DNA from: Bryoerythrophyllum caledonicum
Taxonomy: Eukaryota > Streptophyta > Bryopsida > Pottiales > Pottiaceae
NCBI GenBank assembly: GCA_963971425.1
Contig: OZ020515.1
Location: forward strand, 15,888,291-15,952,290
Direction: 5' to 3'
DNA length: 64,000 nt
How positions within the stretch are numbered: the first letter of the stretch is position 1; every line of letters starts with the position of its first letter. The notes beneath the pieces are model-generated. The model saw only the letters and a list, made by a program, of their open reading frames with translations, ran no database searches and was not told the DNA's origin. Shown here one piece after another: positions 3,111-62,946 of the stretch. The translations under genes were made by a program, and so were the position numbers.

Positions 3111-3600
3111 GATAGTGCTAGAGTCCTAGTGGAGGAGGGGTATGGTGTGTGGAATTACTGTGGTGTCATGGTATCCTAGATCTAGATCTAATTGATTGAG
3201 AAGTAATGTAGAGGCTGCAACTTCTAGATCTAGATCTGAGCCAACACAGAGCCCCGCCATAGATCTTACTCTCTCAAACTAGTACTAGTTAGTTGCAACC
3301 TCATACAAACTTTGTGTCAATAAATCTGAGATTTGTAATCCCTCAACACTCTCCACCCCATCAGCATACCTTTCAGCAACAAGAACAATGCACACAGGGA
3401 TTAACAATGGGCCCAGCAACTCCCATTGTTGTGTGCACCCTACTTGCGCCTAACACCAAAAAACCCTCCTCACCAGGTTTTGCGGAGCTACTCTTCTCTC
3501 ATCTCAAAAAAACGAGGTAGGATATGATGCTTACATCACTTGAAATTTCAGGATTTTATAAAAAAATATTAATTATTGTAGAACAAATTGTGGAAGTTGG
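3111..3600. other. Intergenic, AT-rich, with TCTAGATCT words
   Basis: No gene seen. Two copies of the word tctagatctagatct lie at about 3178-3192 and 3222-3236. A short plus-strand frame at 3293-3520 matches nothing I recognise. The TAGATCT words also recur in the leader of the LINE between 7.4 and 7.9 kb. That is weak support for relatedness. Confidence 0.3.
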
Positions 3601-3686
3601 AAGAAGAAGAAGAACTCTGGTCCCTGGGATAGGAGGCCGACGTGAATAAAGTGCTTCTTCGTTCCACCACTAAGTCCATGCCCACC
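3601..3686 (-). mobile_element. 5'-truncated LINE tail, diverged
   Basis: Read on the minus strand this is the last roughly 85 bases of the LINE family whose full copy ends at 18,877. Shared landmarks are the (TTC)n tail (here gaagaagaagaa on the plus strand), then cgtgaataaag, then ttcgttcca and taagNccatgcccacc. The terminal hairpin is eroded (ctctggtccctgggatagg in place of the GC-rich palindrome), so this copy is old. It sits directly beside the decayed Tc1-like transposase. A possible short target duplication (aagttg on both sides) is too weak to rely on. Confidence 0.7.
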
Positions 3687-6752: not shown

Positions 6753-6765
6753 TTGCAATGTGTAG
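6753..6765 (+). repeat. Target-site duplication, left copy (LINE)
   Basis: The 13 bases ttgcaatgtgtag recur at 18,878-18,890 just after the (TTC)n tail of the LINE. The two copies define the element borders as 6,766 and 18,877. The leading tt could in principle belong to the tail, which would make the duplication 11 bp. Confidence 0.85.
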
Positions 6766-9167
6766 GAAGCAAATTCGATGGCCTGCTGAGAGCTCCGTAA
6801 TTCCTGGTGAGGGCTGCTTCAGGAGTTAGTCTCAGATCTGACGTTTAGGATAGCAAGAGGTGCTGGGCTTGCTTCTACCCCACCTTTACTTCAGATCTGG
6901 ACTTAGTGTATGCTTGGGGAGAGGCGTGTAGTGTTGGAAAGGGGCTCTTATCACCAAGATCTACTTGTGTGCACATTCTGGTTACGCCTTGAGCAGATCT
7001 GCAGAGCTGGGGCTCAATAGTTGGGAGGTGGGATCATTGGTGAAACTTCTATGAGTAATCTGAAGCGCTGGAACTCGAGAGTTGGTAGAAGAAATCTCCA
7101 CCCAGACTGCGTCTCACGAGCTAGATCTAAGTGGCATTAGATAGATCACGCCCATAGCATAGACATAACTCTCATAGCAGCCGGACCCAGGAGCTGCACA
7201 TCAAACAAGCTGGAATCAGAGCCAAGTACACCGACGACTCCGGATCTGGACGAAACTGCTATCTCATCGCCACCGTTACACACTGCATCAGCTACCACAT
7301 CGCCACCATTACACACAGCACCAACTACTACAGCGATACGTATCCTTCACCTCTCTTTCAATTCAATTCAGTTTATGTTATATGCTGCGTTTATTTATCA
7401 ACCTACTAGAAACCTTGAGATTATTACACAAGAGCGTACACCAAGATCTAGTAAAACCAGTACACACTGTGCACACAGTCCTAAGTCTAGTTTCAGATTA
7501 GAATCAGATCTGCTGCAAGGCAGCAACACCCACCTGAAATCACAGTCAATAAACCATAAGTGCTTATCGCCATATTACAGCTCTAGCACACCGGATCGAA
7601 TTACACAGAGCCCGGAATCTAGATTAAGTTTAGAGCCAGATCTACCACATAGAAGCTGCACTCACCTAAAAACACAAACAAGAAACACTGAGCGATCACT
7701 GTTGCATCATAGCTCTAGTACACTTGATAGAATTGCACACAGTCCAAAGTTGAGTTTTAACGTAGATCCAGATCTGCTGCAAGGTAGAAGCGCCTATCTG
7801 GAGTCAAGAAACCCTGTGAGATCATCGTTATATTACAATACTAGTACACTAGATCCAGTTTCAGTTAGTACCACAAAATATACTAACACCTACAGTTCAC
7901 AAGAAAAAGCGAAGAAGATCCAACAAAGGTCAACAACTGAAGAGACGCCTATCAACTTACAAAACGCATCAACAAGAAGGTTGCAGATTCGTCATCAATT
8001 GCCACGACAACACACACAGGCTTGCCCTTCTCTCCCACCCTCATGTATATTCTCATATTACGTCTTGTTTAAACACCTCAATGCACACAATCGAACTAGA
8101 CACATTCAGCACATAACAAAAACCATTCACCAAAAAATCATTGTAAAGCTTTCTCACAAGCAGAAGCAGAAGCACTGCTATTGCCGTTTCTGCATTCAGG
8201 AAAGACGAAGTCTGGAACCTCCCACCGCACTCCACTTCCGCAAATTGGAGCCCCCTGTCGCACTCCACTCCCACCGAACAACTGTCAACCCTAAAGACAA
8301 GTACGGGAGGAACAGCGCAACCTGGAGAAACGACCAGTACCTGGAGAGGAACCCTAAAGACAAGTACGGGAGGAACAGCGCCACCAGGAGAAACGACCAG
8401 TATCCGGAGAGGAGCGGAACAACCAGAAGACACGTCCAGCACTCGGGGAGAAGCGACACAATCAGAAGAAACGTCCATCATCCGAAGAGCAGGGCCACAC
8501 CTCAAAGACGTAGAACCCTCCTCCGCGCCAGGCCGATCTCGTTACTGGATGTCCTCGGCAGAGTAGAGCTCCCTACAGCATTCCACCGAACAGAAGCCAA
8601 GATTGAGCTCAACTCAAGAGAAGCAAGACGCCACAACGACAAGAACGAGAGAAGCAGCAAAACCTGAAGAAACGCCCAGCACCCGAAGAGCAACAATATA
8701 CATCACCGAAGAAGACACCCCCCCGCAATACACCTGTCCGGTTGATATTGAACCTGCCGCGACTTGGAGAAGACGACTGCCGCAACGTTGCTAGCGATCT
8801 GTCGCTCAGAAGAGCGTCAACGACGCCCTGCTCGCCAACGCCCAACCTCATCGAAACACCCTCAAAACGCCCCACCCCGACGCCCCTTTGGCCCGCGCAC
8901 ACTGTCGCCAACTGGACTCCGCACCAAAGGAGTGCCAAGAAGGGATACAAACCAGCTATCGAGCAAAGAGAAGGAGAAACGAAGAAACAAAGGAGGGGAC
9001 CCAGCCGGTGGCCAGAGATAACGGAAGAAACACAACCGGATCGAAAGCACATCAGGATAAGGCCTCGTGCTGTATACTCTAACCCTCTCTACGTTTACTG
9101 TGAAAAACCACCGTGTTTGTGTTGCTTTAGCCCTCATTGTAGAACTCACCTCCTAGAATCAGTGGAC
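6766..9167 (+). other. LINE 5' leader with tandem repeats
   Basis: About 2.4 kb precede ORF1. An open frame of 430 codons (7,375-8,667) covers three tandem 126-132-base repeats at 7,474-7,863, each reading (H/Q)SPxSxFxxxxDL...STxDRI. Two tandem 63-base repeats lie at 8,290-8,415 (NPKDKYGRNSAT...), followed by two shorter units with the same TRRxVxH pattern. Repeated monomers in LINE leaders can act as promoters in other families (for example mouse L1). Whether the frame is translated is unknown: the repeats are multiples of three, or nearly so, and no domain is recognised. Confidence 0.6.
7474..7863 (+). repeat. Three tandem ~130-bp repeats in LINE leader
   Basis: Translated in the open frame the units are 44, 44 and 42 codons. 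Shared positions include SPxS, DLLQG or DLPHR, the THL(K) region, and SSSTxDRI. At DNA level the shared words are agatctgctgcaagg and agctctagNacacNNgatNgaat. The units are diverged, so they predate this insertion. Confidence 0.75.
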
Positions 9168-10802
9168 ATGATAGAGAGCACAAAGAGGACCCTGAACATG
9201 GACATGGAGGTAGAATCACCTGAACAGAGCCCCATCAAAGCCCAAAGCTCAAAGGCAACCAGGAGAAGAGAAGAAGTAACCAGCACCAGCAAGAAGAGCA
9301 AAGCATCCACAAAGGAAAAAGGTAAGTCTATACAAATGCCTGAACTAACCAAGTTCAAATTTTGGTTGGGGTTTCAGGCAATGGAGGCTTTGGCAGTGGA
9401 GAACGGAGATGAAGAGCTCTATAGTGGCGAAACGACACTGGACATGATGGCTAGAGGCATGAAGAAGGAAGAAGCGGAAGAGGTATGTAATGCAAGAGTA
9501 GCATTTCCTAGAATCCCACAAAACCTTTACCCCATGACTAGAAAAGGGATAGATGGGCAACACTACAACTTAACACAAATTCCTTTTGATATCAAAACCC
9601 AAGAGAGTTCTGGCTTGTCATTTAGCTACCATGTGGCTATCCACTTTGAGCTCCCCAAAAACCCAATCATGCATGATGAAGTTAAGAAGATGACCCTTGC
9701 TAGACTTAAAAAGATGGATATTGCTCTGGGAAAAAACATGGTGGACCCTCTTGTCATCCAATGCTTGAGTATTAAACATGGAGGGACTAAAGGAGTATGG
9801 GCTGGAAACCTTAAAATGCATCTACTCAAACCCGAATTGGATGGTTTGATGCTCATAAAAGGCATTAGACCATTTATCCTTGACATTGATGATGAACTTG
9901 TTGTTGGCAAAGTATGCAAATCCTACCTTGGGATTGCAAAAGGTACTAACCTTTCCGTGAAGGTCAAAAGTGATAGTCTAATGGATTTCTCAGCCCAAAC
10001 TCTCTTCAAGGAAATCCTTGAGAGTAGCTTTCATCGGGGGCATGACTATGAAGTCTACGGCGTGCAAAAGGGCCATGGCGATGCCCACGCATTTATTATC
10101 TCTACAACCCCTCTTCAAACAAAGAAGATACTCGTACATCACATCACCGTGGGTGACGAGGTGATACAAGCAAGACAAGTGGGAGAGACCAAAGTGTCTA
10201 ATGGTGTGGTGGAATCCAAAGCAAGGAAAGAAGCTCTAACCCTTACTCTTTCACCTCTTCCTATCCATCTTGATGTTATGCACACTTCACATGAAATCTA
10301 CAAAATAATGGGAGGAGCCAATGTGAGGAATATTTATTTTCACAAAGAAGAGGCTAATTATCACAATGGAAATGCAAATGTACTTTGTGCTAACCCTATC
10401 GTATATAGGACTTTTGTGCACAAAACCTTTGTCATGAATGGTAACTATGTAGACTTTGCTCCACACTGGCAGAGTCTAGAAGGAGTCAACCGCCCCACCG
10501 AAGAACAAGTCAAAAGTTTTGGCTTTGATGATATTAACATGGCAATTGTCAATACCATCTCCACCTTCAAGATGCAAGACAAGAACGAAACTCTCACCAA
10601 AAAAGACATGGTGGAGATTTTGGAGGAGAACAACAAGAAGATTAGGAGAGAAACTAGGGAGTACACCAACAAAATGCACAACGAGCTCAAGGGAGAAATG
10701 GAGAACCTCCAAGATGCTCTACTTGGGGTACTCAAAAGCATGTCCGCCATTACGGGGAAGAAGAACTTATCTCTTGAAAACAAAGAACCGCCAAACATGT
10801 AG
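9168..10802 (+). CDS. LINE ORF1 protein (putative RNA-binding, coiled-coil C-terminus)
   Basis: The frame is open from 8,742, but I chose the ATG at 9,168 (545-codon frame including the stop), because upstream codons continue the leader's repetitive style. The N-terminal 60 residues are charged with a Lys/Ser-rich basic patch (RRREEVTSTSKKSKASTKEK). The middle shows no domain I recognise: there is no CCHC knuckle, no RRM signature and no esterase motif. The C-terminal 70 residues (KKDMVEILEENNKKIRRETRE onward) look like an amphipathic coiled coil, typical of LINE ORF1 proteins that trimerise. By position and class it should coat the element RNA, which is inference. The frame is intact, unlike ORF2. 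Confidence 0.75.
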   Translation: MIESTKRTLNMDMEVESPEQSPIKAQSSKATRRREEVTSTSKKSKASTKEKGKSIQMPELTKFKFWLGFQAMEALAVENGDEELYSGETTLDMMARGMKKEEAEEVCNARVAFPRIPQNLYPMTRKGIDGQHYNLTQIPFDIKTQESSGLSFSYHVAIHFELPKNPIMHDEVKKMTLARLKKMDIALGKNMVDPLVIQCLSIKHGGTKGVWAGNLKMHLLKPELDGLMLIKGIRPFILDIDDELVVGKVCKSYLGIAKGTNLSVKVKSDSLMDFSAQTLFKEILESSFHRGHDYEVYGVQKGHGDAHAFIISTTPLQTKKILVHHITVGDEVIQARQVGETKVSNGVVESKARKEALTLTLSPLPIHLDVMHTSHEIYKIMGGANVRNIYFHKEEANYHNGNANVLCANPIVYRTFVHKTFVMNGNYVDFAPHWQSLEGVNRPTEEQVKSFGFDDINMAIVNTISTFKMQDKNETLTKKDMVEILEENNKKIRRETREYTNKMHNELKGEMENLQDALLGVLKSMSAITGKKNLSLENKEPPNM

Positions 10803-10975
10803 AAATACAAGACCACAAGGCAACTATCTACTTTAAGACATTATACTATATACATAGTATACAAGATAGAATAGCCTACTCTACACTTAGTAGAATACTA
10901 GTAGAAAACTCGCACAAAAACAAATGTATTAGACAATATACTAAATACAACTATTATACAAAAACCAAAAACTAT

Positions 10976-13900
10976 ATGTCGTATTTTATCCAAAACAGTT
11001 TCTATACAAAAACAAAATACTTTACAATATACTATACTCAATACAAAAACCTCAAAAAATACAAAAACTATACGATACAGTATATCCAAAACAAATATTA
11101 CACCCAAATACACACATGGAATACAAAAGCAAAAATTCAATACACAAAACTCCAAAAACAACCAAAAAACACATATGTATCAACACAAAAAACCCACATA
11201 CATAAAACCCGATTATATACAAAAGCAGAGACAAATACAAAAATACAAATACAAGAAAAAGAACAAATACACCCTTACACAAATAACCACACAAATACAA
11301 AAACAAAAAACCCAAAAACCACCGCCCAGATATACAAATACAATACATACAAAACCTACAAAAATTTATGTAAAAAATATATATACACACACACAAACAC
11401 ATTGACAGACAAAACTACCACCCACACAACTAACTACATAAATATGGAAAAAAACACTAAAACACAAACACACAATAAAAACAAAATAATTAAAACTCCA
11501 AAAAATACGCACAAAGCAAAGAACCAAAAACAACACATTAAACCTATACACTATAAAACCCTAATACTACTAAGCGGAGACATAGAAACCAATCCAGGGC
11601 CTATGCCAAATGTGTTAAAAAGACACCCCTCAACACACAAGAAAAATGCCAAACTATACTTTATACCAAATACCATAAAACTACAACCGGAATACAAACA
11701 TATTGCTCAAACATTTGCACCTCTTTTAAAAACCACACATATATTACATCAACTATACAACACTACACACCCAAATATTGCCCTATACATATGACAAAAA
11801 AATACGTATCCATTAACACACATTTTTTATGCCCTAATAACTATGACCCACCCAAACATAGACGAATGTAACAATCTTTTAAATCCACAAAACCTAAATA
11901 TTATTACATGGACTAACACACTACTACGGACCTTATCAAACTTACAAAATCCACCCGAAAGACATATACATAACCCCCACCCATATACAAAATTTCTTGA
12001 AGAAAATCAAAGTATTATAAATCACGGGAACTCAATACATACAGAATTATACAAATTTCTACATAGTCAAACCATTCCTCCTTCTAGTGACATAATAAAA
12101 CAAAAATTTCCTTACCTTCCTAACAATCTAATTAATGAGTCACTAAAATGCTTTGACCCCATACCGGAATATACACACCCACCCCCCCACCCTTCTACCT
12201 TCCACCACAAAACCAAAACATTAGTACAAACAACGAAAATACAAATATAATTACATGGAATGCTTCATCTCTAAGCACCGCTCTCCCTAGCCTACAAGCT
12301 TTAATCACACAGACAGACATACCACCGGCCCTTATAACTATACAAGAAACAAAATTATCCGCCACAAAATCTACAAAATACATACAAAACATATTCCAAG
12401 ACTACAAACTAATTTTTAATAATACACATGCACTAACAAGATGCATCCAACAACGTAGACCATACACACCAGGCCGCGGTGGCCTCCTCACACTAATACA
12501 CAAAAAATACGCTTTCCCGGGCAACATCAAAAAAATCCCTACCCCAATGGACATATCTCCCTACCTCCAAATAATTAGAATTGCTAATCAACCACTACAA
12601 TCATGGCTGATCTTTCACATGTATATGCCATCTCACCCCGAAGATATTAGATTTATTAGGGACATACAAAACACTATTACATCTCAAATAAATAATTACC
12701 CCAATCACACTTGTATGCTATGTGGAGACTTCAACAGAGACATAGCATTAATTGGTAGACAAAATGGAAATCATAACACCCCACCTCAGACCACAGATTA
12801 CCAATGGCGCCACTTCACAGAAAACCTAAACTTCACCTACATAAATACTGATACACAATACTCTAGACAAGGCGGCTATAACTATAGTGATTGGAGCCTA
12901 ATAGACGGCTTCTATATAAATACAAACAATAATACACAATACACTTCTACAACAAATAAAGACATTATTCTTAACTTGGACCACTCACCTATACAACTTC
13001 ACATACCAAATAACATATTAATTAGCCGTACCCCTATAAATACAAACAATGACACCATACGCATACTCAACCCCATCCCAAAAGACAATTTAGAAAAATT
13101 CAACACAAAGTTCTTTGAAGAAAACTCAATACAAATTGACTCTCTCATAAACTCTCTTAAAAATAATAATCAACTCTCTCAAACACAATGGCATGAAACA
13201 TGCCACATGTTAGATATACTTATCAATAAAATCTCCGACACAGTTGAACAAACTTGTAAAGCCCAACCAATACCACAAATGACAATCCGTACATCACAAC
13301 AAGGGGGTTATCTACCCCGCAAACTTTCCAAAACATGGAAACAACACCTAACTACTTACCATGTAATAAGAAAAACAATTAGAATTGTAAAAAATAACCC
13401 TCAATGGCGTAACCACCCCATACACAACGAACTACTAACTATACAACACACCCAAATCCCTACCCCGCCGCCTCCGGACCTTCCCCACGATACATGGATA
13501 AAAGATATCGCAATAATTGCAAAAAATGCCAACATACAAGCCCGGAAAATAATCACAAAATACACAAAAGAAAACATTAAAAAAGCCATCTCAAAATACA
13601 GACAACTATACGAAATCAGCCCCAAAAAAATTAACAAAAAAGTCTTTAAAAACCTCGAATCCCCACCAATGGATTGTATCAAAGATCAATATAATAATAT
13701 TCTAACTAGCCCCGAAGACATTGCGAATGAAATATTTAACCAACAAACAAAAACCAATAGACCAACAGTACTAACATGTAATTACCAGCCACAACATACA
13801 ATAGAATGCACATGTGCAATACACCAATACCCTTGGCACGACCTAGACGGATATACCCTTGACAAACGGGGCGAACCAGAAATTCCACTTCATAAATACC

Positions 13901-16900
13901 TCAACAGAGCCACATACGACACATGCCTTCAAAATCTTGGAAATACTAAAGCCCCAGGCCCAGACCGTATACCAAACTCAATACTAAAAAACATGCCTCC
14001 AAGATTTCACAAGCTATTATTTCTGTTCTTCTCCCACTGCTATAAACAAAAACAGATACCAAACTCATGGAAATTAAGTACAACAATTCTACTATACAAA
14101 AAAGGCGACCCGTCCATACTACCCAACCATAGACCAATTGCACTAGCTAACACAATATACAAACTCTTTACCAGTACACTCACCTCCATACTATCCTCAT
14201 ACGGCGAAAAATTCAAAATCCTACATGATAGTCAAGAAGGATTTAGAGCAGAGAGAAGTACCGCACGACAAATACAAACTATAATAGCCGCACTAGAAGA
14301 CGCAAAGTTTACTAACCAAGATATATACATACTATACGTGGACTTCAAAAATGCCTTTGGCTCAATTGACCATGCCCGACTTCTAGCAATAATGATGGAC
14401 CTTGGTTACCCAAAAAGATGCAACTACACTTGTTGGAAACATCTATTCTAAATCATCTACATGTTATACCGGCGAACACTTTGGGAAAACAAAACCTATA
14501 TCCATCCAAAGAGGAACTATACAAGGGAATACCCTCAGCCCATACCTATTCATCATATTTCTAGAACCACTACTCAGATGGCTAGAAAGAGGAAATTACG
14601 GATACACTTTTGGCACATCACAGGTCATAATAAACTCTGCCGCATACGCGGATGACCTAGCCACCATAACTAACAAAATCAAATCAATCCAAATACAACT
14701 AAACAAAATTGATAGGTATTGTAAATGGGCCGGTATGGACGTAGGTGTCCCAAAATGTGCCGCTACCGGTTGCCCAAACAAATCCAAATTGAATCCTACC
14801 ACTTTCAAAGCCCTAATACAAGCCTCGAACATCAATTACCGCAATCAACCGATCCCCATACTACACCAAAATGAACCATACATATACTTAGGCACAAACC
14901 TTGTTCCCTCACTAAAATGGAAAATCCAAATCCACACCACAACGACAAAACTCATCAAACAATGCAAAGAACTAACAACATGCCCAGCCACCATGAAATA
15001 AAAAATAAAAATGGTTGATACCATACTACGCCCAGGTGTGGCATACAGTTTCTACGGTGTACCATACTCTATGCCAGCTATCAAAAAACTTGATAAAAAA
15101 ATAATAGCCATACAAAAAACCATATGCGGATTACCAAAATGTATGTCAAACGCAATAACCCAACTACCACATAACCTATTTGGACTTGAAGCTTTCTCCC
15201 TCAAAAACGCATACCTCCGATGTATAGGCGAACAGCTGCAAAATGCTCTAAACGATAAAGGAAGACTTGGGAAAATATATAATGGATTAACTCACTATGT
15301 CCTTGCCCAATATGGTGGCGCTGAAAACATACCGAGAATTAAAAAAAGTGACTGCATAAGATCACCAATAACACGAACATTCTTCTTATTAAAACATATA
15401 GCTAAAGCCCACCTTAAAAGTACGCTCCCGAACTTCCTCACTAATCCTACAATACTAGAAATACTATGGCGCCAAGAAACATTAAATCATAACACACTCA
15501 ATGCCCAACTCTCCCAAAAGCTTCTACAAAAACTCCTCTCAAAAAATATTTTTGAACTAAACCAAATTACCTTACCTAACGGTACACACATCATGAACAA
15601 TGAGGACTTCAAAACCTACCACTTCACCCCATCTAAACTAATAAAGAGTGCCCTAAGTGTTGCTAAACAACTATTTTGCCACATAACATGCCCCACTATA
15701 TGTCATACTCCTTGCAACATACACCCATACTCTCATACACTTAAAGATCCATTCATCACCCTCAACAATAACATCATTCCAAGAAATATTCTCACACCAA
15801 CCAATCCCCCTAACCCTCCACATACATACCACCCCCGCCTCCCAACATACATCCCCGAAAACCCTACCACATACCCCATTAATAATATCATAAACCATAA
15901 ACATATCCAACACACAGACACAAATAACATACAAAATACCTACACAAAATATCTATGCCAATGGCAACACAATGATAATACATACAATAAATGGCTCCCC
16001 CAAAGAGACCTTTTTCCATGGCATGACACCAATACCTCCACACATAACACTGAAAAATTAAAACAATACTACCAAAAGATCCAAAACAAAATATACTCAG
16101 ATATCATCATTGCCCACCATCCACAAGAACAATCCTCAGACTCAAGGTCCGTAACGCCACCCATAATAATCCCACTCTTAAACATCTACACAACAGAATG
16201 CAACCCCAAAAATGATATCCTTACATCCTCAAACACAATTCAAATAGATAACAATCAAGCACATCTATACGAAGAAAACGGCCGACATTTACACACCATA
16301 CCCATTACCGGGCTCCAATGGTTATGGAACCAATATCATACAAAATTACAAACCCCTACAAACATTGAACCAACAACCCAACCCTTTGAAACCGAACTAA
16401 TATGGCTTTACCAAAGATATAAATATCGAATACCAAAAACTGACCCCCTCAAAAATGCGCAATACACAATACCCACCCCCATTTTAGACTCACTAATATC
16501 ATCCTTTAACATCGAACACTCATACTTTTCCTCCCCGATCACATGTCCTACCAAACTAAATAAATTTTACTCACCGTACGAAAGAGACAAAATATTTGGA
16601 TCCCTAGGCAAGGCCTTTGAACACAAATGGATCGGAAATGGAATAGCTCACCCCCACAACGAGAAAGACATAGAACAAGCCATACATTGGGCTAGACTTG
16701 CCGCCAAACACGATCCAAATAACACAAAAACAATCATCGTCACACCGAACAATAATTGGTACCAAAACAACAACCAACATTCAAACCCATTCCCAGATTC
16801 CCACATCATTGCATTATTCGAAGCAGACACAATACCATACGAAGAACCTAATATCCCACCCGAGCTAAAAAAACCCCGAATAGAGCCATCTACATTACAA

Positions 16901-18625
16901 ATACTATGCGTCCATCATCAAAATCAAAACCTGGGCTCCCTAGAACAACTTGCGGAACTTACCTCCATAACAGACAATCTAGACATACAACGACCATACA
17001 CAAAACCGGCCCCACCAACACCCATACAAACCCCCGTAAACAAAAGTAAAAAATGGTCAAAATTAAACTATGACAACAACACATTAAACTACTCCGTCAT
17101 ACCTCCCCCTCTCCCAGACTACCCAACTCATACCACACCAAAATTTAACCCCGCATACAGTTATTACACCGACGGCTCCTTTAAACCACCGGAACAAATT
17201 AGGCCGGGCTCTTGGCGAAGAGAAAAAGCTGGCTATGGCATATATAATTCTACCAAAGAAATTAAACTAGCCAAAAGACTCCATGGACTACAAAATATCC
17301 TCAGAGCAGAACTCATGGCCATTCACAAAACACTACAAATCATCACAACAAAATACAAAAATGAACCTGCACATATATTCACCGATTGTATAAATGCACT
17401 CTACCTACTAAACACTCAAATAACACACCCAACCCTTCACAACAGTCATCCCGACCAAACCATACTAACATCAATGGTACAAATGTTACAAAAACGTACA
17501 CAAATCACAACCCTTCACAAAGTCAGAGCCCATGCCAACATTGATGGCAACGAACAAGCAGACAAACTTGCAAAAGAAGGCCGAGAAAAAACACCCAAAA
17601 ACGCCAAAGACCCTCACGAACATGCTCATGCCACCCCATACTACTTTCAAAAGAAAGATTGGCCTTCCAAAGAAGATACCCCCGACAAAGGCCCAATTAG
17701 ATTTCTGGGCAAATATCTCAAAAAACAAGACCTCTACAACAACCTGGATACAATCTCAGAAAATATTCCTAACATAGAAAAATGGACTAACAATAACGAC
17801 ATAGACAATGAACTTTCTACAAACTTTTGGAAAAATCCCATCATCTCAGACTCACAAATAACGTGCCTCATCAAATTCCGTACGGGTCAGTACATGGGAA
17901 ACGCTCGCAAACAACTCTTCTTTGGAATAGAAAGATTCCCATCCATAACATGCCCCATATGCCCCTCAACGGACCCCGACACATGGCTTCATGTGCTATT
18001 CAAATGCCAAAACCACCACATACACTCCCTAATTGTTAAAAGACATAACAATGCGGTATGGGAAGTCCGAAAACTAATCACCTCCTACAATAAATCGAGA
18101 TGTTTTATACTTATGAACGCCGGCACTTTTAATAGCAATCCACAAGAAAACACGGTCCCCCCATGGCTACTTCCATGCTCATGTATGACCCAAAGATGTC
18201 ATTGCAACGCTAGGCTCAAACCGGACATTCTTTGTGTCAAAGGTTTACCATACAACGACCCACCACCCAAGAACATCAACCAAGACTACACCATTCAATT
18301 CATCGAATTTACATATTGCAACGATAGATTCTCCCCGGAAACAATACAAAACAAAATAGACAAATACCAACCCCTCATAGACGACATCATTGCCCTCGGC
18401 TGGAATGTGGACCCCCTTATTGTTATCACATCCGGCGCTCGTGCCACCACCTTTATCCCATCAATGAAAACTCTCGAAGATACCTTCAAGATACCCATTG
18501 ATACAATTAAAACTACCTTTAAAAATATCAACACCATCGCTATTCAACATGCCATGTCTATTTTACAGCATAAACGCAAAATCGAAAACAACCAAGTCCT
18601 TCCTGATAGGCAAGACCCCCCTTAG
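10976..18625 (+). pseudogene. LINE ORF2: 2A / APE / RT / RNase H / CCHC / RLE, broken in four places
   Basis: The region from the ATG at 10,976 is one ancestral frame, now interrupted. A Thr/Lys/Asn-rich N-terminus is followed by a 2A-like motif (11,561-11,602). The AP endonuclease spans about 12,247-13,000: ITWNASS, QETK with Glu at 12,346, GDFNRD at 12,724, SLIDGF, LDHSP. The RT spans about 13,940-15,000: KAPGPDRIP, YVDFKNAFGS, RGTIQGNTLSPYLF, YADD at 14,645-14,656. RNase H has Asp 17,171, Glu 17,309, Asp 17,384 and Asp 17,561. A CX2CX9HX4C knuckle lies at 17,951-18,007, RHN at 18,041, then PD at 18,221, Glu 18,305 and Lys-Tyr at 18,362-18,367. Lesions: TGA at 11,792, a frame change in a C-run near 12,181-12,191, one extra A at 14,412-14,416, and TAA at 14,999. 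All catalytic residues I can place are present, so inactivation is recent. Confidence 0.87.
11561..11602 (+). other. 2A-like ribosome-skipping motif in ORF2
   Basis: The translated stretch LILLSGDIETNPGP contains the 2A consensus D-x-E-x-N-P-G-P (core at 11,579-11,602) preceded by a hydrophobic run, as in functional 2A peptides. Known 2A sequences make the ribosome skip the bond between the final Gly and Pro. In LINEs they occur near the ORF N-terminus (for example trypanosome L1Tc and several animal clades). Here it would release a roughly 209-residue leader peptide from the endonuclease-RT protein. Activity is inferred from the motif only. Confidence 0.85.
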
Positions 18626-18877
18626 GAACTTTGCCACTCTGTCTCTTCATGATTGGCTGCCTGTTTGGTTTTGCTTTTTGTTGTTTAGTTAGTTTGGTCG
18701 TGGTTGATCGTTGTTGGTTGGTTTCTGGTTACTCGTTACATAGTGTCTACCCTCGAAAGGGGGAAGTAGTTCCAGTTCGCTAATTCCTTGTCCGGTGGGC
18801 ATGGTCTTAGCAATGGAACGAACAGACGCTTTATTCACGCCGGTTCCCTTCGGGTACCGGCGTTCTTCTTCTTCTTC
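18626..18877 (+). other. LINE 3' UTR with terminal hairpin and (TTC)n tail
   Basis: The UTR ends with a GC-rich palindrome at about 18,839-18,861 (gccggttcccttcgggtaccggc): outer arms gccggt/accggc pair perfectly and enclose a ccc-ttc-ggg or UUCG-type loop. It is followed by gttcttcttcttcttc. The same end is present at 28,776-28,924 and, eroded, at 3,601-3,686. In several LINE families the reverse transcriptase recognises a 3' stem-loop. Conservation of this end in all three copies fits that role, as inference. Confidence 0.75.
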
Positions 18878-18890
18878 TTGCAATGTGTAG
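18878..18890 (+). repeat. Target-site duplication, right copy (LINE)
   Basis: Identical to 6,753-6,765 (ttgcaatgtgtag). It marks the 3' border of the full-length LINE. Joining the outer flanks restores one AT-rich stretch with a single copy. Confidence 0.85.
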
Positions 18891-28775: not shown

Positions 28776-28924
28776 GAAGAAGAAGAAGAACGCCGGTACC
28801 GAAGGGACCGGCGTGAATAAAGTGTCTGTTCGTTCCATTACTAAGACCATGCCCACCGGACAAGGAATTAGTAAGTAGGAACTACTTCCCCCTCTCGAGG
28901 GTAGACACTATGTAACGGGTAGCC
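28776..28924 (-). mobile_element. 149-bp 5'-truncated LINE tail inserted in gypsy remnant
   Basis: This is the reverse complement of the last roughly 147 bases of the full-length LINE (18,731-18,877), with under a dozen differences: the (TTC)n tail, the hairpin gccggtcccttcggtaccggc, then ctttattcacgccgg and the conserved ccctcgagagggggaagtag region. It is flanked by a perfect 12-bp duplication (caacacctacca). It is a dead-on-arrival insertion typical of target-primed reverse transcription, and its high similarity to the full copy shows the family was recently active. Confidence 0.9.
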
Positions 28925-28936
28925 CAACACCTACCA
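28925..28936 (+). repeat. Target-site duplication around LINE tail, right
   Basis: Second copy of caacacctacca. Removing 28,776-28,936 restores continuity of the gypsy-derived sequence. Confidence 0.85.
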
Positions 28937-30169: not shown

Positions 30170-31157
30170 GTCCTCCATTAGCGTCAATCACTGCTAGTAA
30201 CCTAGAGGGCATAGAATGACATAGTTGAAGGAGCTTTGTACCATTGACTAACTTCCACTCTCTTTCAAGAACTACCTTCAACACATCTAAGCTTCTAGGG
30301 CATTGTTTGCCATGTTGCACAACATCTTTTAACATCCTCCAAACGTTCTCGATTGGATTGAGATCGGGAGAGTTTGCAGGCCAGTTGAGCTTTTCGAGAA
30401 GGTGGCTTTGTCTCCATTCTTCACATATTTTGCTCCTATGGACGGGTGCCCCATCTTCCATAAGGACTCCTTGTGGAATTTGACCCATGAAATGAACCAA
30501 TTTGGCATCGTAAACCACTTCTATAAAATCCTTAGCAGAATTAGGCATAAAGACAAGTTCTAACTTTTGTCCTCCGGCAAATGCGCCCCAAATCATTAAA
30601 GAAGTCCTTCCACTTTTAAAAGTAGGAGCTAGACAACTTGATGAATAACGCTCGTATGCACTTCTCTAAACATGAATTTGCCGAGAATTTTTTTCAATTT
30701 CAAAAGTAGATTCATCTGTCCAAACAACACGCTCCCACTCTTTTGCACTCCATCCACGATACTTCTGAGCAAAAGCTAATCGTTGAGACATGTGACGAGG
30801 TGTCAAAAAAGGTTTTTTGACTGCAATTCGACTAAAAATGCCATTTTTATGTAAGACCCTTTGAATAGTACGTCTACACACTTGAGTAGGACATGCATTG
30901 GTAATCTCTGAGAGTGAAGAGCAACGATGAATTTTTGAGTAATGCACAATACTACGAACATCTCTATCACTAAGCTTTTTAGCGTGACTTCCACTGCAAG
31001 GTTTGCACTTGTAGGTTCCATCTTCTCTAAATGTTTTTACTAACCTTGTAACTGTTCTAATAGGAACTCCAATAGTAGCTGCAATTTGAACTCCTATAAA
31101 TCCTCCTTCACTCAAACCTATGATGCGAGCACGAATTTCATCTGAAATTGCCATCAT
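30156..31157 (-). pseudogene. Tc1/mariner transposase (DD34E), one in-frame stop
   Basis: The frame starts at an ATG at 31,157 (a second ATG follows at once) and ends at 30,156, about 333 codons. The N-terminus carries a helix-turn-helix DNA-binding region (IRARIIGLSEGGFIGVQIA, TVTRLVKTFREDGT) and a second HTH around residues 60-110. The DDE core shows WTDEST (first Asp), MEDGAPVH (second Asp) and NSPDLNPIEN (Glu). The second Asp and Glu are separated by 34 residues, so the class is DD34E. A single TAG at 30,666-30,668 lies between the first and second catalytic Asp. Otherwise the frame is intact, so the loss is recent. It would cut at the element ends and insert at TA. Confidence 0.92.
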
Positions 31158-31677
31158 AAACTTATAGAGTGCGTGATGCTAGCTACAGCAGTAGAGTAGG
31201 GGTTAGAGCAGAGCAAGGGGGAGAGAAGGGAGCCAAGGCGCTGGAGCAGAGAGGAGAGAGAAGGGTCGCCAAAGCACAAGCCCATATGCATACATGAAAA
31301 ATCGTTTTGCTCTTAATCACTCATCATGTATGCCCAATGTGAGTCAACACTCATGCATCCCACAATACAACACTCTCTGTTTTGAGGATTGTCTCAACAT
31401 TCAGTCTATCACAAATCACAGACACCATTCCCTTTACATAGTGTTCAATAGATATTTAGAAGAAAAAATTTGTCATGTGTCTAATGCACACTTTATGGCC
31501 AAGTGGATTCTTCTGCATGGAACACTTCTTCACTTCTTCATTTAGATGTTATTGATCTTTTTGAGAAGCATTTATGTTTGGTGGCTTACTCACATGATTG
31601 AGTTCAATGAAAAAGCATGAGGTGTCAAAGATATTTTGACATTTTCAATATGACCTTCAAATTGTTTATCATAGTTC

Positions 31678-59604: not shown

Positions 59605-60835
59605 GCTTCTGTCGCCAAAGTAGTTCACAATTTGAAAGTTTATATAGCCTAAAACTATCTACATCTTTGACTATTTTCACTTTCAGGTGCCATTTTCAGA
59701 ACTTCTATTTACAGTAGGTGCCAGTTTTCAAACACATACTAAATCATGCATAGCCAGGAACAGTGAAACTCTCAACAGACTAGTCGCCAACAATTGCATC
59801 CATCTCCAAAGGCTATTTGCCAATCTTCGATACTTCATGTACAGAAAGTTGTGGAAGTTTTCAACACTTTAAAATATAAAAAATTCGCCACATGACATAC
59901 TGTTTTTAATGTATGCATAGCCACACTCCCGAGACTTCAAAAATTATTAAAAAAAAGGGTGCACTAGCCTATGTCCGGTGGCCATATGCTTAGTGAAGAG
60001 AATGAACAAACACTACATTCACAGGGGACTCCTTCGGAGACTATAGTTCTTCTTCTTCTTAGAAATAATTGAAATGCATCATGAAAGAACATAGTATGAA
60101 GAGTTGTGAATACACAAACTCGGCCACCGGTCAAATAGATTTGAATTTTTTTGCATCCATACATGTCACAGATTTGGAACAAGATCTAATTGTTAAATTA
60201 CACCAATCATTTGCCGCCTCATTGACGAAGCATTTCTAACATTGGAATTACTATGTCTTTTTGTTTCTTGAACATGACACTCTATGGTACTCATATTTAT
60301 TTTCACTTGGAACCAAACCAAAGGATGATTTTTAGTCTCCAAAGTCTACCATTATCAAAACAAAAAATTTAAACTACTCTATTTTACTCTAAACTAGACC
60401 ATATATGTATAGCTCTATAACCCTTTAGACTCAGAAAGGCCCAAATGTGGTCTCTAGGGGGGTGAAAACATGATGTCACAGTCAATAGAGGAAACTAGGA
60501 CCAAATATTCTTCACGACGAACGTAGTCCAGGTTACAATGATTCTAATGTGACCATTGTCACAAAAATTGATGCGGGCTTGAGCAAACTACAATGATTTC
60601 AATGAACTAGTGAGGCGGTGATATGTATCACGTGTGTACATAATGTTCTCCATAAACTATCACACTCATAGAATCTCCTAGGTCTTGCCGGTCATGCTTG
60701 GCACTAAAGGATTAAAAATACATGATATATACATAAGAATTATTAAAAATTAAGAATATTTTGAAAACATACATTTTCTAAAACATCACTCTTTTCTAAT
60801 GGAATAAAAGCATCCGTTGTTCTTTGATGCATTGC
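59605..60835. other. Intergenic AT-rich DNA
   Basis: No gene recognised. Contains the 3' flank of the B3 gene. Short frames only. Confidence 0.4.
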
Positions 60836-61259: not shown

Positions 61260-61542
61260 TTTTTGCACTAAACCCAAGGGCCGAACTCAATTGGCCGAAC
61301 TCAATTGCACTAAACCCAAGGGCCGAACTCCATTGAAGACCAAACTATGCCGAGGGGCCGAGTTTTGGAGTTGTAAAAAATTATTAAAATATTGAATTGG
61401 TGGAGTTTGGGTCCTTCTAGTGTGAAGCCCCAAGGGCCGAGTTGAGGGGCCGTGACCGATATCATTTGGCAATTCCCAAGCCCATTTTTTCCTCTTGAAG
61501 GCACTTATTTTCTGAAATTTTCCTCTCTCACCTTCTTTAGCT
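61260..61542. other. 5' part of Harbinger element with short repeats
   Basis: gcactaaacccaagggccgaactc occurs twice, at about 61,265 and 61,307. gggccgag- or gggccgtg-type words recur at 61,355, 61,435 and 61,448. The left end of the Harbinger element probably lies here. The right end is beyond the window, so inverted ends could not be paired. Confidence 0.4.
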
Positions 61543-62946
61543 ATGGATTCTAGAAGAGAACGCATTTTTGTTCTTCTTTCGGTTTTCATGGTTATGAAGT
61601 ATGCCATTGTAGGCATTTTGGCATTGCAAAAGCTTGCAATTTTTGAACAAAATGTTCAAATGATGATGATGGTGGATTTTATTGTTGGAGGACAACGGAG
61701 GGTGGTATCGCAAAGGCAATTTGAAAGTCATGGGGGTTTTATGGAGCATACACTATTTGGATCATTTTCAGAGGTCCAGTTTCGAAAACGTATGAGGGTA
61801 AGAATCTCTACATTCAAGTATTTATGTGATTTATTAAGGCATGTTTTGAGGAAAGAAGATACAAAAATGAGAGATAGCATTTCTATGGAAACAAGAGTTG
61901 CGGTAACAATTTCACGATTAGGAACGGGCAATTATTTGATTATGATAGCTGACTTGTTTAAAATTGGAGTGAGTATAGCTTCTGAAATTATAAGGGAGTG
62001 TTGTGAGGCTATTAGGATTCATTTGAGGCCATTAGTTTTTCAGAAACCAACCTTGGCTAGAGTGAAAAAAATTGCTTCAGAATTTGAAGCAATGCATGGC
62101 ATTCCGTTTATACTTGGAGCTATTGATGCTAGTCATATTCCTATCGTAGCACCTTCACATGATCCTATATCATATCATTGCCGAAAGGGCTTTTATTCAT
62201 GTCTCCTCCAAGGGATTGTAGATGCCAAATGTAAATTTTGGGATTATGATTTTGGATGGGCTGGCCAAATACATGATTGAGCATTATTTCAAAAATCAGA
62301 AATAGGGAAGAGGACAATGAAAAGGGCATTATTCCCTTACAAGTTCATTGGAGATGCGGCTTATCCTATGAGGCCTTGGTTTTATTCACCTTTCAAAGGA
62401 GAAAAAGAAGGAATGTCTAGAGAGAAGGCTCATTGGAATTTTATTCAATCTAGCACACGTATGGCCGTGGAGAGGGCATTTGGGATCTTGAAGGGTAGAT
62501 GGCGCATATTATTGAAGATAATTGACATGCCTCTACGTCATGTACCGGACATTGTCACGACTTGCATTTGTCTACATAATTTATGCATTTTGGAGGATGA
62601 TGAATTTGATATGGATTGGGCCAAAGAAGCAGAGATAGAGATGTCAGATGAGGCAAATAAATGGCTAGGAGATATGCAAAATTGTAACATGTTTAATATT
62701 CTTGAAGCATCATTGAAGGAGATGAGGGCATTACAAGGATCAACTATGAATGTTGAAGAAAATATATATGTTGAAGAAGAAGAAGGAAAGGAAGATGAAG
62801 ATGAAGATGACCATGAAGAAGAAGAAACGAAGAAAGAAAGACAAGAGAAGATCAAAAAGATGTTGACCGAAGCAACAAGAATGCACAAATTATTGGCAAA
62901 GAGTTTTTATCGAGAGAATTTGAAACGGAAGTCAAGCATGGAATGA
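61543..62946 (+). pseudogene. PIF/Harbinger transposase, single TGA
   Basis: One frame from the ATG at 61,543 to the stop at 62,944-62,946, about 467 codons, interrupted only by TGA at 62,278-62,280. The N-terminal part carries the helix region (FRKRMRVRISTFKYLCDLLR) and VAVTISRLGTGNYLIMIADL. The DDE core is GAIDASHIPI (first Asp), FGWAGQIHD (second Asp; the TGA is the next codon), GDAAYPMRPWFYSPF and RMAVERAFGILKGRWRIL (Glu). A conserved CICLHNLCI follows. The C-terminus is a long acidic Glu/Asp run and then basic. Apart from the stop the frame is clean, so loss is recent or the stop is population-specific. Confidence 0.88.

Follow-up and report, generated by a model that had tools for sequence, protein, structure and literature searches.

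Genomic Context and Boundaries of the Element

The window (the whole 64,000-nucleotide stretch of DNA that was analyzed) contains a LINE on the forward strand, flanked by a target site duplication (TSD) of 13 bp that was recovered by script at the ends of one unit, as the preliminary description had proposed. Its placement in a plant host is corroborated by a gene with a B3 domain and by a match to Plant_tran, both in the window. The boundaries of this copy and the lesions within it are as follows:

6766..18877, + strand: whole LINE copy, with a 13-bp TSD on both sides and a (TTC)n end
6753..6765, no strand: 5′ TSD copy, TTGCAATGTGTAG, 13 bp
18878..18890, no strand: 3′ TSD copy, 13 bp, same sequence TTGCAATGTGTAG
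18838..18862, + strand: 3′ terminal stem-loop, followed by the (TTC)n tail
11792..11794, + strand: in-frame TGA in ORF2 of the window copy, open in sister copies
12178..12190 (approximate), + strand: frameshift at a C run, window copy
near 14415-14425, + strand: second frameshift, within the reverse transcriptase
14999..15001, + strand: in-frame TAA in the window copy, glutamine in relatives

The 5′ terminus looks, by eye, like that of the sister copies (GATGGC..TGA..GAGCTCCG), and blastn with the first 150 bases matched nothing in the shorter stretches from ten copies. At each of the four lesions (two stops, TGA and TAA, and two frameshifts), the frame is open in some relative or sister copy, and the element is probably a full-length, though decayed, LINE copy. 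A ciliate-type genetic code as the cause of the TAA was considered and dropped, this being the single TAA in that long frame.

ORF1, the 5′ Leader, and the Start of ORF2

The 5′ part of the element comprises the following features:

6766..9167, + strand: 5′ leader containing repeats (a 63-bp unit; repeats of 73 nt at 132-nt spacing)
9168..10802, + strand: ORF1, 544 aa
10778..11443, + strand: open ORF2 frame upstream of the 2A region, with an in-frame ATG only at 10976 and the next at 11444
11567..11602, + strand: 2A/StopGo-like peptide LLSGDIETNPGP, upstream of the APE domain

ORF1 has no Pfam match above cut-off, and no ORF1 relatives were detected among the 137 rows of our comparison set (136 proteins plus the window); it shares 51% identity with its subfamily A counterpart (dN/dS 0.13, dS being saturated). 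The ORF2 frame begins open shortly before the end of ORF1, and its 222 codons from 10778 to 11443 contain no stops, versus 6 and 11 in the other two frames. The stretches ahead of the first ATG in two sister copies are likewise stop-free: 310 codons in C2_21.97 (versus 18 and 26 stops in the other frames) and 135 codons in C6_22.40 (versus 8 and 10). When these or longer leader stretches were base-shuffled, none of the 300 shuffles of each left the frame open. As the stretch preceding the 2A region is low in G and repetitive, we take the open frame as support, not proof. The sequence GCCAAACATGT lies at the ORF1/ORF2 overlap in the window, four subfamily A copies, C6_22.89 and C7_10.5 (C6_22.40 differs), and no canonical slippery heptamer was found by eye at this overlap; ORF2 translation may start by frameshift, reinitiation or a non-ATG start.

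The window peptide matches the 2A consensus D(V/I)ExNPGP (PMC4981915, in part; 2A peptides are also treated in PMC12846837, in part). Sister copies carry LLLILGGDIETNPGP and LLLLLGGDIETNPGP, and DIETNPGP is retained in all ten fetched copies. Across the comparison set, in which many rows are partial proteins, the motif occurs in 4 of 137 rows, including P0029 (DVEPNPGP), P0044 (DVERNPGP), and P0018, an APE-type element outside the dual-endonuclease clade described below. The 2A-like peptide would free the ORF2 protein from the upstream leader during translation. Alternatively, the peptide and the long leader could be functionless, with ORF2 beginning at a downstream ATG: in-frame ATGs follow the motif at 11603 and 11843, a second, upstream 2A copy is degenerate (DIENNLGP) in seven of ten copies, and the low-G, low-complexity composition of the leader is alone enough to lower the stop count. 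However, the stretch from the 2A-like peptide to the APE domain has a dN/dS of 0.20, the leader frame is stop-free, unlike the other frames and the shuffles, and the motif itself is invariant among the copies, and we consider this alternative improbable.

Endonucleases, Reverse Transcriptase, and RNase H

Downstream of the 2A-like peptide, ORF2 comprises the following domains:

12244..13005, + strand: APE endonuclease domain
13906..14920, + strand: reverse transcriptase (RT) fingers/palm, with YADD within 14642-14662
15866..16123, + strand: chromodomain-like domain, preceding the PCIF1-like domain
16295..16849, + strand: PCIF1-like domain (Pfam stretch 16352-16753)
within 16643-16669, + strand: HPHN at the catalytic NPPF position
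17156..17590, + strand: RNase H
17948..18622, + strand: CCHC plus restriction-like endonuclease (RLE) domain

Exo_endo_phos, RVT_1 and RNase H all exceed their Pfam cut-offs in the window ORF2, which confirms the APE on its N-side and the RT and RNase H that had been placed between the two endonucleases. The RLE gave no match in Pfam or PDB sequence searches, and no library model recognizes it; its RHN-PD-E-K series was recovered on the C-side together with the CCHC, as had been described, and is common to an R2-named protein. Two AlphaFold models were built from shallow alignments (11 and 6 sequences; pLDDT 45 and 41), and neither model had a Foldseek match at E 0.001. On a second look, the structural matches of the RLE model were mostly PD-(D/E)xK nucleases, at low model confidence. 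Between subfamilies, dN/dS is 0.10 for the APE and 0.08 for the RLE, by which both endonucleases look constrained. The claim of two endonuclease domains in one ORF2 stands, and the architecture first given for the element left out its PCIF1-like, chromodomain-like and 2A-like parts.

Relatives and RT Phylogeny

Protein searches identified 12 close relatives, then two Cymbomonas elements and four weaker matches; the wider relative set comprises the best 120 of 122 matches. APE, RT and RLE are all present in 36 of the 137 rows. The initial profile, made from the window plus three close relatives, matched 31 other dual rows and no RLE-only rows; R2-like rows entered the set by iteration. Searches for related loci in viral contigs and in general genome contigs found no relatives.

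The RT tree, from a quick search on 127 rows, contains several long branches, and 34 of its 124 inner branches are drawn as open; it was rooted on three R2 references, has human L1 as its only L1 reference, and is without named Dualen/RandI or I-clade references. The window RT joins P0010-P0012 (support 100) within a 54-row clade (SH-aLRT 97) of mostly dual-endonuclease elements. This clade comprises 41 PCIF-bearing rows, four with APE and RLE but no PCIF, five APE-only rows and four others (P0010-P0012 and P0064), several of these being partial proteins. P0087, P0093, P0098 and P0099, which have RNase H and RLE and no PCIF, are sister to the remaining clade. Human L1 falls in a separate 63-row branch. 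Neither of the outcomes named beforehand as contrary to a Dualen relationship, a firm RT grouping with plant L1 or I elements and the lack of a PD-(D/E)xK fold, occurred.

These results bear on whether the element instead belongs to the L1 or I type of a plant, having RNase H and a C-terminal CCHC region that is merely RLE-like. L1 elements do contain CCHC. RNase H is known in plant L1 and in the I group (PMC4640811, in part), and the failure of library models to recognize the RLE also speaks for such an element. Nevertheless, the RT clade lies apart from human L1 (in a tree without an I-clade reference), the RHN-PD-E-K series recurs in the R2-named protein, and the second-look structural matches are mostly PD-(D/E)xK nucleases; we judge this explanation to be very unlikely.

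Copies in the Host Genome

The host assembly (437 Mb, including the window) contains many copies of the element. The C-terminal half of ORF2 gave 38 scored matches that are 98-100% identical, the first being the window itself, so that there are at least 37 further copies; PF12237 gave at least 150 scored matches among 2614 candidates, and 33 of the 150 have a 3087-aa open frame. Six of the ten fetched copies form subfamily A (99.5-99.7% identical to one member over 13,959-13,979 aligned bases), and a seventh copy, C2_16.7, is 99.4% identical over 10.3 kb. Between subfamilies A and B, dS is 0.47-1.0 in the 5′ half versus 0.02-0.11 in the 3′ half, a divergence pattern that, as read from these sequences, is mosaic. 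By script, the window has a 13-bp TSD and C7_4.2 one of 11 bp, with 2-4 bp returned for the other five A copies; by eye, TSDs of 11-12 bp were seen in C2_21.97, C6_25.9 and a short insertion at 28776, and none in the A copies C2_8.76, C2_27.4 and C12_8.9. The LINE family has recently multiplied, and its copies are numerous and young.

The sister copies also bear on a composite origin, in which an APE-type LINE and an RLE-type LINE were nested or misassembled together, a reading suggested by the splitting of the window copy over several frames. Long open frames are found in sister copies on many contigs, one copy (L059) has every domain in a single uninterrupted frame, and the order APE-RT-PCIF-RNase H-RLE recurs in 30 of 137 rows, the window having the same order with the chromodomain added. 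Such an artifact is thus exceedingly improbable.

PCIF1-Like Domain

The single ORF2 of a dual-endonuclease LINE also includes a domain homologous to PCIF1/CAPAM, a cap-specific adenosine methyltransferase. The window scores 40.6 bits against PF12237 (cut-off 31.1), a family that matches 9 of 13 aligned close sequences including the window, several others being without the region. A ten-member profile, searched up to E 10, matched exactly two PDB sequences, zebrafish and human PCIF1 (E-values 2.5e-10 and 3.2e-10), with NPEY aligned to NPPF. In all 42 rows that show the three domains, it is placed between RT and RNase H, and it is present in 31 of the 36 rows with APE, RT and RLE, the window being included in both counts. 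The copies vary little in this domain, with a dN/dS between them of 0.14 on 6 changes; in comparisons with the window, the ratios are 0.17, 0.29 and 0.29 on 8, 6 and 2 changes. In the open literature, with few subscription papers covered, we found no retrotransposon described as having a PCIF1-like domain, and the available text of PMC7641849, PMC8145807 and PMC10616867 mentions none.

It is possible, though rather unlikely, that the domain acts as a functional N6-adenine methyltransferase and marks the RNA cap, cDNA or target of the element. The domain is clearly homologous to PCIF1, PF12237 represents a CAPAM-like methyltransferase to which the name of a WW domain was wrongly given (PMC7641849, in part), and NPEY is retained at the NPPF position in 19 of 51 PCIF1-like members. 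However, NPP(F/Y/W) occurs in none of the 51, and the window and its clade have HPHN or a near form instead of NPPF; among 14 host genomic stretches, 11 have HPH and three have YPH, PPH or DPH. Given these replacements at the NPPF position, a catalytic role is unlikely in the window's clade, in which the domain would bind RNA or the cap and not methylate.

Chromodomain-Like Domain

The domain between RT and the PCIF1-like domain is below the Pfam cut-off for Chromo (11.3 versus 25.1 bits, E 0.33), and a chromo profile found no match in PDB and matched only 9 of 137 rows, namely the window and eight close relatives. In the structure model (low confidence), three strands and a C-terminal helix resemble those of chromodomains. 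By eye, at the presumed positions of the aromatic methyl-lysine cage, Y/F and W are retained and the third aromatic is not. The dN/dS of this region is 0.41 on 8 changes, with 0.17 and 0.87 in two comparisons with the window. Chromodomains occur in LTR elements (PMC5348765, PMC12477816, both in part), and the chromodomain-like part of the present element would direct the particle to marked chromatin.

Comparison With Known Elements

The LINEs known as Dualen/RandI were reportedly described from green algae by Kojima and Fujiwara in 2005, and the Dualen of that description is said to have a cysteine protease (Ulp1-like). No Ulp1-like protease was found in the window element, and the protease is a variable part in the comparison set (12 of 137 rows); without it, we file the element as a dual-endonuclease relative and not as Dualen itself. 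Dualen carries both endonucleases and RNase H (PMC4640811, in part), and the window element likewise has APE, RLE, RT and RNase H; the non-A simple-repeat 3′ tails of Dualen/RandI (PMC3747384, in part) are paralleled by its (TTC)n tail. Dualen has been recorded in Chlamydomonas relatives and at centromeres (PMC8226300, in part), and RandI is listed for green algae, with L1 and RTE for flowering plants (PMC3747384, in part). The window element differs in its plant rather than green algal host; its PCIF1-like, chromodomain-like and 2A-like parts may set it further apart.

Three Cymbomonas tetramitiformis proteins (P0013, P0014 and P0022) share the order APE-RT-PCIF-RNase H with the window, and P0014 and P0022 also have an RLE match, although both stray from the RLE motifs. 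They differ in having a Ulp1-like protease and the NPEY motif and no chromodomain match, and the window ORF2 shares 23% identity with P0013 and 27% with P0014. The shared architecture, together with these and other relatives, supports the proposed relationship to Dualen.

R2 elements (Bombyx, zebra finch and turtle) have a related RT, and the RLE series is present in an R2-named protein; to our knowledge, R2 lacks APE, RNase H, a PCIF-like domain and a 2A peptide. R2 is site-specific, whereas the 18 printed flanks of 20 further 3′ junctions of the window family have no common sequence by eye.

Proposed Mechanism and Implications

Taken together, the window probably contains a decayed copy of a recently multiplied, Dualen-like dual-endonuclease plant LINE with a multi-domain ORF2. 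The intact element would encode ORF1 and then a long ORF2 with 2A-like, APE, RT, chromodomain-like, PCIF1-like, RNase H and CCHC-RLE parts. One endonuclease would nick the first strand and so prime reverse transcription of the RNA with its (TTC)n tail, while its partner would cut the second strand or other targets, this division of labor being a guess. We infer target-primed reverse transcription, StopGo release, chromatin targeting and a non-catalytic PCIF1-like module for this element.

More tentatively, dual-endonuclease LINEs may be an ancient family, conceivably one of the green lineage, with a captured PCIF1-like domain that in the window's clade would be a non-catalytic cap or RNA binder. 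The slot for a chromatin reader between RT and the PCIF1-like domain may be exchangeable (a chromodomain in the window's clade, a PHD finger in others), and the ORF2 extension may be separated by StopGo. The table of plant LINEs in PMC3747384 (in part), which covers green algae and flowering plants, gives RandI for the algae alone; the present plant genome holds many young elements of this kind. Their intact frames open the question of why a LINE keeps two endonucleases, which lies at the heart of how RLE was replaced by APE. From the PCIF1-like and chromatin-reader parts, it would seem that modules for the RNA cap and for reading histones have been captured by retrotransposons.

ORF1/ORF2 junction and variable regions of the element

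The sequence GCCAAACATGT lies at window positions 10790-10800, where ORF1 of the dual-endonuclease LINE stops and the ORF2 frame begins, and among the sister copies from the same genome it is retained in all of those compared but one (C6_22.40). In subfamily A (copies L009-L020 and L025), a region of ~950 bp that contains the 2A-like peptide and the start of the APE domain occurs twice; the upstream duplicate has about 74% identity to the window, and its 2A reads DIENNLGP in seven of the 10 copies fetched. A 2A-like DIETNPGP was also observed close to the N-terminus of P0018, an APE-type LINE protein.

A Ulp1-like protease region was identified in 12 of the 137 rows compared (P0013, P0014, P0019, P0021-P0025, P0029, P0033, P0046, and P0129), with a position that is N-terminal in some rows and deep internal in others.

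Other mobile elements in the window

3600-3686 (-), short match to the LINE 3' end
28776-28936 (-), short match to the LINE 3' end (90% identity across 163 bp)
30666-31178 (-), HTH_Tnp_Tc3_2 transposase
59972-60060 (+), short match to the LINE 3' end
61516-62946 (+), DDE_Tnp_4 transposase

The two transposases are of the Tc1/mariner type (HTH_Tnp_Tc3_2) and the Harbinger type (DDE_Tnp_4). The similarity of the three short stretches is confined to the 3' end of the LINE, and TTC repeats follow each; the stretch at 28776-28936 is flanked by an 11-bp duplication, GGTAGGTGTTG, identified by eye. These stretches may represent either 5'-truncated copies of the LINE or a SINE that borrows the LINE tail.
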